This document shows, piece by piece, positions 5,882 to 6,267 of a DNA stretch of 64,000 nt. A program made the position numbers and the translations under genes. Source of the stretch: Herbaspirillum sp. SJZ106 (lineage in GTDB: Bacteria; Pseudomonadota; Gammaproteobacteria; Burkholderiales; Burkholderiaceae_D); NCBI RefSeq assembly GCF_006715495.1, contig NZ_VFNI01000001.1:806001-870000 (forward strand). The letters run 5' to 3'. Positions within the stretch are counted from its first letter, which is position 1. Each line of letters opens with the position of its first letter. The notes under the pieces are model-generated. The model had not been told where the DNA came from and searched no databases. It saw only the letters and a list, made by a program, of their open reading frames with translations.

Positions 5882-5964
5882 ACGCCGCGCCGCAGGGGGA
5901 AAAGCCGTCGACTGGCGGCTTTGTTGTATAGTGGGCCGTCGCGGCAAAACCACTGTATGAAAAA

Positions 5965-5984
5965 TACTGTGTATTTGTACAGTA
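5965..5984. promoter_or_regulatory. LexA box (SOS operator)
   Basis: TACTGTGTATTTGTACAGTA is a perfect CTGT-N8-ACAG palindrome with TA/TA flanks. By my count it matches 17 of 20 positions of the E. coli-type consensus, including both conserved half-sites. It sits about 50 bp before the start of the small gene at 6037 and immediately upstream of an extended -10 element. Confidence 0.8.
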
Positions 5985-5988
5985 CTTG

Positions 5989-5997
5989 TGCTACAGT
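5989..5997 (+). promoter_or_regulatory. Extended -10 promoter element
   Basis: TGCTACAGT fits TGn-TAtaaT with no good -35 at normal spacing. A LexA dimer on the box just upstream would block polymerase here. The predicted start near 6003 leaves a leader of about 34 nt ahead of the small gene. Confidence 0.45.
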
Positions 5998-6036
5998 GAA
6001 GCCTCTTACAGACAGACAAGAAGGGGAATCACTGCC

Positions 6037-6267
6037 ATGACACACTTCGATCTTGCTTCAGACGCACGCTTCGCCGTCGCTTCTTCCACTCCCTCGTCGT
6101 TTACCCTGCGTCTCGGTCGCCGCGAAATCTTCGCCTGCCGCGACACTTACGTACGACGCTACCGCGTCAACCCCGTCATCGAATGCAGCGCCGGCATCGA
6201 GCCCGGCCACGTTGAAATCCTGTTGTTCCGCCGCTGGTTGCTGGTGCTGTCCAAGGCGCGCGGCTGA
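6037..6267 (+). CDS. Small SOS-controlled protein of unknown function
   Basis: A 76-residue protein starting MTHFDLASD, preceded by a good ribosome site (AAGGGG, about 9 nt before the ATG). I do not recognise its family. It is rich in Arg and Val, has two Cys (in FACRD and IECSAG) and ends with a short hydrophobic patch, ILLFRRWLLVL. No signal peptide or convincing membrane helix is seen. A LexA box and an extended -10 sit directly upstream, so induction by DNA damage is the main functional clue. Candidate roles include a cell-division checkpoint or damage-response accessory factor, but nothing in the sequence decides this. It points toward the 3' end of the iron ABC ATPase on the other strand. 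Confidence 0.65.
   Translation: MTHFDLASDARFAVASSTPSSFTLRLGRREIFACRDTYVRRYRVNPVIECSAGIEPGHVEILLFRRWLLVLSKARG

Follow-up and report, generated by a model that had tools for sequence, protein, structure and literature searches.

A predicted LexA-repressed gene for a small basic protein in Herbaspirillum and other Oxalobacteraceae

Most knowledge of SOS regulons comes from a small number of model groups. In the textbook mechanism, DNA damage leads to the RecA-triggered self-cleavage of LexA. SulA is a small LexA-controlled product; SidA and YneA, small SOS-induced division inhibitors other than SulA, are membrane proteins; among toxins, SymE is small and SOS controlled in E. coli, and TisB has a hydrophobic segment. 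In a published account (PMC9578287), SulA (PF03846) is the SOS division inhibitor of gammaproteobacteria, SosA (a further small, SOS-induced division inhibitor) is a membrane protein, and imuA can be mistaken for sulA in annotations. Here, we report a gene of Herbaspirillum for a 76-residue basic protein that, judged by sequence comparison, is very probably a stand-alone, LexA-repressed SOS gene of the Oxalobacteraceae (the name that the genus labels suggest for the family sampled in the genome collection), a candidate carried by 126 of 195 genomes of that one family.

The operator and its conservation

The window (the whole 64-kb stretch of DNA that was analyzed) contains the features listed in Table 1. 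Matches to named genomes assign it to Herbaspirillum, of the family Oxalobacteraceae. The original prediction had placed a 20-bp palindrome resembling the E. coli SOS box between an extended -10 element and a 76-codon gene with a good ribosome site. The palindrome, the gene, and the ribosome site were confirmed; the position given for the -10 element was wrong, the conserved one lying downstream of the box and the upstream one not being kept across loci.

Table 1. Coordinates of the features of the locus within the window
Feature	Coordinates	Strand	Details
LexA operator (SOS box), TACTGTGTATTTGTACAGTA	5965-5984	.	17/20 positions matching the E. coli consensus
Extended -10 element	5989..5997	+	TG 5989-5990, one base, TACAGT 5992-5997; 4 bp 3' of the box
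Ribosome binding site, GAAGGGG	6020..6026	+	Ends 10 nt before the ATG
Gene for 76-aa basic protein	6037..6267	+	ATG at 6037, coding 6037-6264, stop 6265-6267; homologues, purifying selection, no family match

The box is the sole site in the window with three or fewer mismatches from TACTGTATATATATACAGTA (shuffles, 0/100), and the whole 4,576,925-bp genome has three such sites (reversed pattern, none). Exact TACTGTN8ACAGTA sites number four in the genome, this box included, against a chance expectation of 0.056 at the base composition of the window; one lies 50 bp before ruvA, which is followed by ruvB, and another directly 5' of a PA0069-type radical SAM gene (NCBIfam name), PA0069 being a LexA target in Pseudomonas. 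With two or fewer mismatches allowed, 21 genome sites were found versus 63 for the reversed control, and meaning can therefore be attached only to the best of the 21. One site with two mismatches (C7:18341) adjoins a frame that was named MFS-like by eye and has no evident connection with the SOS response. The original prediction had proposed a comparison with the boxes of recA and lexA. In the same genome, the recA box matches at 16/20, with one mismatch among the 12 fixed positions, and lexA has two boxes, which match at 15/20 and 13/20; by match count, the box reported here outscores them all. In all 27 genomes examined from three genera (27 of 27), both lexA and recA are preceded by LexA boxes of the same kind. 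The fourth exact TACTGTN8ACAGTA site of the genome, a candidate SOS box for recG, is between recG and queA (NCBIfam names; C6:37166-37185 in L136), where the locus ends within the recG frame.

Relatives were collected by a peptide-based scan of GTDB contigs, which gave 186 encoded relatives, and the best 80 were kept as the locus set. These best 80 of 186 come from Herbaspirillum, Undibacterium, Noviherbaspirillum, Herminiimonas, Rugamonas, Janthinobacterium, Massilia, Pseudoduganella, and Duganella (a MAG), with other MAGs labelled only Oxalobacteraceae, Burkholderiaceae, or Burkholderiales. A CTGN10CAG box matching at 13/20 or better lay within 400 bp upstream of the gene in 79 of these 80 best loci versus 1 of 305 control stretches drawn from the same loci, a comparison that strongly supports the predicted SOS (LexA) control. 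Boxes of at least 15/20 were found within 300 bp upstream in 76 of the best 80 and, in a second set of 49 loci that partly repeats the first, within 500 bp in 46; the three loci without one were L009, the diverged copy L048, and the doubtful match L049. Among six diverged copies (five second copies and that of G497, where it is the sole copy), five have a box of their own at 16-18/20 (L044 and L304-L307), and L048 has none. Conservation of both box and reading frame in relatives, the absence of which the original prediction had named as refuting it, was thus found to be present.

At least two boxes lie upstream in 50 of the best 80 loci, and in 29 of the 80, mostly from Janthinobacterium and its relatives, paired boxes stand 17-20 bp apart. 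In Undibacterium, the box at the homologue has drifted to TACTGATTG... (e.g., L081-L099). The A after CTG (left half CTGA) recurs in 6 of 10 Undibacterium recA boxes (L270, L271, L273, L274, L276, and L277) and in 9 of 14 imuA-side boxes and is not seen in the lexA boxes of the genus; CTGA is therefore a genus-level operator drift that is shared only in part. In the window, a half-site ACTGTAT (5952-5958) with an A-run stands just 5' of the box, as it does in a number of Herbaspirillum loci (uncounted). In a Herbaspirillum frisingense MAG (L051:1-150), the one exception among the best 80 loci, the upstream DNA differs up to the position of the box and the good box is gone; L009 has the same 13/20 site, and by eye the altered DNA of L051 (also of L009) may belong to the terminus of an inserted element.

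Promoter layout and predicted repression

The pattern TGnTA..nT follows the box at a distance of 1-6 bp in 69 of the best 80 loci (rate in mononucleotide-shuffled upstream regions, 0.001) and is missing in 11 (L051 and ten others, several from Undibacterium among them). In the window, a -35 element at 17-bp spacing would fall inside the LexA box; since the conserved extended -10 lies just downstream of the box, the operator covers the -35/spacer region. A local promoter/terminator scan, in which a sigma-70 promoter must have a -35, found none. The predicted transcript start is near 6004. A ribosome-site motif (GGA, GAG, AGG, or GGGG) stands 5-20 nt before the start codon in 79 of the best 80 loci.

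Bound to the 20-bp operator, LexA would mask the -35/spacer of the extended -10 promoter and so block it, and RecA-triggered self-cleavage of LexA after DNA damage would free the promoter. Given an operator this close to consensus, and its doubling in some genera, expression would probably be tightly repressed and switched on late, timing that would fit a product costly in healthy cells.

The protein, its relatives, and known SOS proteins

The predicted protein (8.7 kDa; pI, 10.25) is encoded downstream of genes for a cyanate hydratase and an NMT1-type protein and faces a convergent ABC-transporter gene. A 72-aa frame at 6267 had no NCBIfam match, and the gene looks monocistronic. Median dN/dS was 0.11 (76 usable of 78 pairs among 13 Herbaspirillum copies, picked from 33 of 34 Herbaspirillum genomes with a match), and the gene is under purifying selection. 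Over 22 diverged members, G27, R29, G57, and W67 are invariant, and R25, R35, D36, R40, Y42, P46, G53, L62, L68, and A74 are nearly so. Beta periodicity is favored in eight-residue windows starting at 17-23 and 47-60, and helix in those starting at 24-25, 41-46, 61, and 63-64; our guess is a small, mainly beta protein. Hydropathy gave no transmembrane segment (best 19-residue window, 0.95, Kyte-Doolittle), and the protein is probably soluble. A chance box beside a chance reading frame is contradicted by the comparative data, box, promoter, and protein all being conserved, and has almost no probability left.

The homologues in the family sample span 24 of 44 genera (one match marginal, 6e-4) and are single-copy in nearly all genomes that have one; 47 of 100 relatives also carry one (one marginal, 9e-4). 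In an order-wide sample, 12 of 399 genomes had a homologue, and all 12 belong to the host family.

Searches of profile libraries gave no family for the protein. Pfam had no match for five members and, for 30 members at an E value of 10 or less, only DUF6619 and GlgX_C with one member each; NCBIfam gave nothing above chance; and PADLOC matched JetA3 with 2 of 30 members (best, 0.035), which was taken as chance. Against the PDB, one alignment (A2) had 86 matches up to an E value of 10, the best at 0.041 and nearly all of the 60 listed being antibody chains, which we regard as chance, and another (A3) had one match (E value, 0.59). At abstract level, the open literature yielded no paper that apparently describes the gene. 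The protein thus represents a family undescribed in the libraries searched and, as a kind, the product of a putative SOS-regulon gene.

One reading is that the gene is a remnant of a prophage or other mobile element that has kept its LexA-controlled promoter. The neighbors of the homologues do vary between genera, and in a PHROGs search of 22 members a diverged one (L047) matched most of phrog_4140, a profile of unassigned function (E value, 0.0023); a single member at that value is too weak for a phage link. However, homologues of the window protein were absent from 50,697 phage and 72,556 plasmid records and from viral contigs (two peptide-based scans), a phage search with a diverged copy found none, and that with L047 gave only matches at E values of 1 or above. 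With the gene mostly single-copy, under purifying selection, and spread over 24 of 44 genera, a mobile remnant is very improbable.

Like SulA, the protein is small and under LexA control (here predicted), but the two have no sequence match, and membership in PF03846 was rejected by the Pfam scan of 30 members. PF03846 had no match in G000 or in the 12 Herbaspirillum genomes of the 195-genome sample; across the sample, 22 of the 195 genomes have 25 PF03846 matches, every one within a frame of 269-390 aa, and all but one of them (24 of the 25) fall at listed ImuA places (that of G479 lies outside the list). A stand-alone SulA did not turn up in the 195 sampled genomes. The membrane-bound inhibitors YneA, SosA, and SidA differ from the protein in having a membrane segment, and that class was rejected by hydropathy.

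The small size and the near-consensus operators, doubled in 29 of the best 80 loci, would suit a self-limiting toxin of the toxin-antitoxin type (SymE- or TisB-like) that stays silent before the SOS response. SymE (PF08845), which is likewise small, was considered after a resemblance was seen by eye, but hhalign against 10 SymE-domain pieces gave a probability of <1% (run without a positive control), and SymE was rejected; PF08845 had no match at an E value of 1 or less in the window genome. A hydrophobic segment as in TisB is absent and the window has no Rfam match, and we consider a toxin unlikely.

Gene neighborhood and possible role

In 15 of the best 80 loci, the opposite strand carries imuA and imuB matches upstream of the gene, with dnaE2 present in 13 of the 15 (in L089, ImuA and DnaE2 were named by NCBIfam and ImuB by position, with only a weak polymerase IV model match). 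In 14 of these loci, 9 of them labelled Undibacterium, 206-433 bp separate the gene from the start of the imuA match, and in L094 the distance is 1.7 kb; all 14 close loci have at least two LexA boxes between or beside the gene and imuA. In these 14, the imuA-imuB-dnaE2 cassette is a direct neighbor, divergent rather than co-directional; since imuA-imuB lie on the opposite strand, the gene is outside that operon, and no co-transcription with the cassette was found. In the window, by contrast, the cassette does not adjoin the gene, and nothing in the window genome scores above the family cut-off for ImuA (best match, 2.7e-11; weak matches near 1e-11 are presumed to be RecA). ImuA lies above the cut-off in 147 of 195 family genomes, and an argument from co-occurrence was dropped on that account.

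This neighborhood bears on the reading of the protein as an accessory damage-tolerance factor acting on DNA, RecA, or ImuA-ImuB-DnaE2 or other translesion polymerases. The close divergent imuA with its LexA boxes is consistent with such a role, as are the high pI and the conserved arginines (R25, R29, R35, and R40), although basic charge is a weak clue. Against it, the window genome and others (e.g., G002, G034, G035, and G264) have the gene without ImuA above the cut-off, and the Herbaspirillum and Janthinobacterium loci examined have neighbors other than imuA-imuB; the association is a lineage trait rather than a general one. We regard a damage-tolerance role as possible but doubtful.

Our first guess at the action of the protein, a tentative one, is that it serves as a checkpoint factor for growth or division and would be the Oxalobacteraceae counterpart of E. 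coli SulA. Two observations favor such a late, costly effector, namely the near-consensus or doubled operators and the failure to find a stand-alone SulA in the 195 sampled genomes; nothing in the sequence points to division specifically. Action on damaged DNA, RecA, or translesion polymerases would be nearly as likely, and comes close behind because of the imuA-imuB neighborhood in one group. Taken as either an SOS cell-cycle checkpoint or a damage-tolerance cofactor beside the ImuABC mutasome, kept in most Oxalobacteraceae, the new family is given a chance somewhat short of even. The interpretation in the original prediction is partly supported. The term damage-response factor, offered there, would follow from the predicted regulation only, and division inhibitor, the other term offered, names a possible role for a protein that has no SulA match and no membrane segment by hydropathy.

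That gene and operator have been kept together in most sampled relatives points to an undescribed DNA-damage-response gene of the Oxalobacteraceae. Because no stand-alone SulA turned up in these genomes, the gene is a concrete candidate for holding division or managing lesions during the SOS response in these bacteria.

The gene is dispensable in some lineages, as 69 of the 195 family genomes have no match. In a 1.7-Mb genome of the family (L309), the homologue has a premature stop, and the gene may be decaying there.
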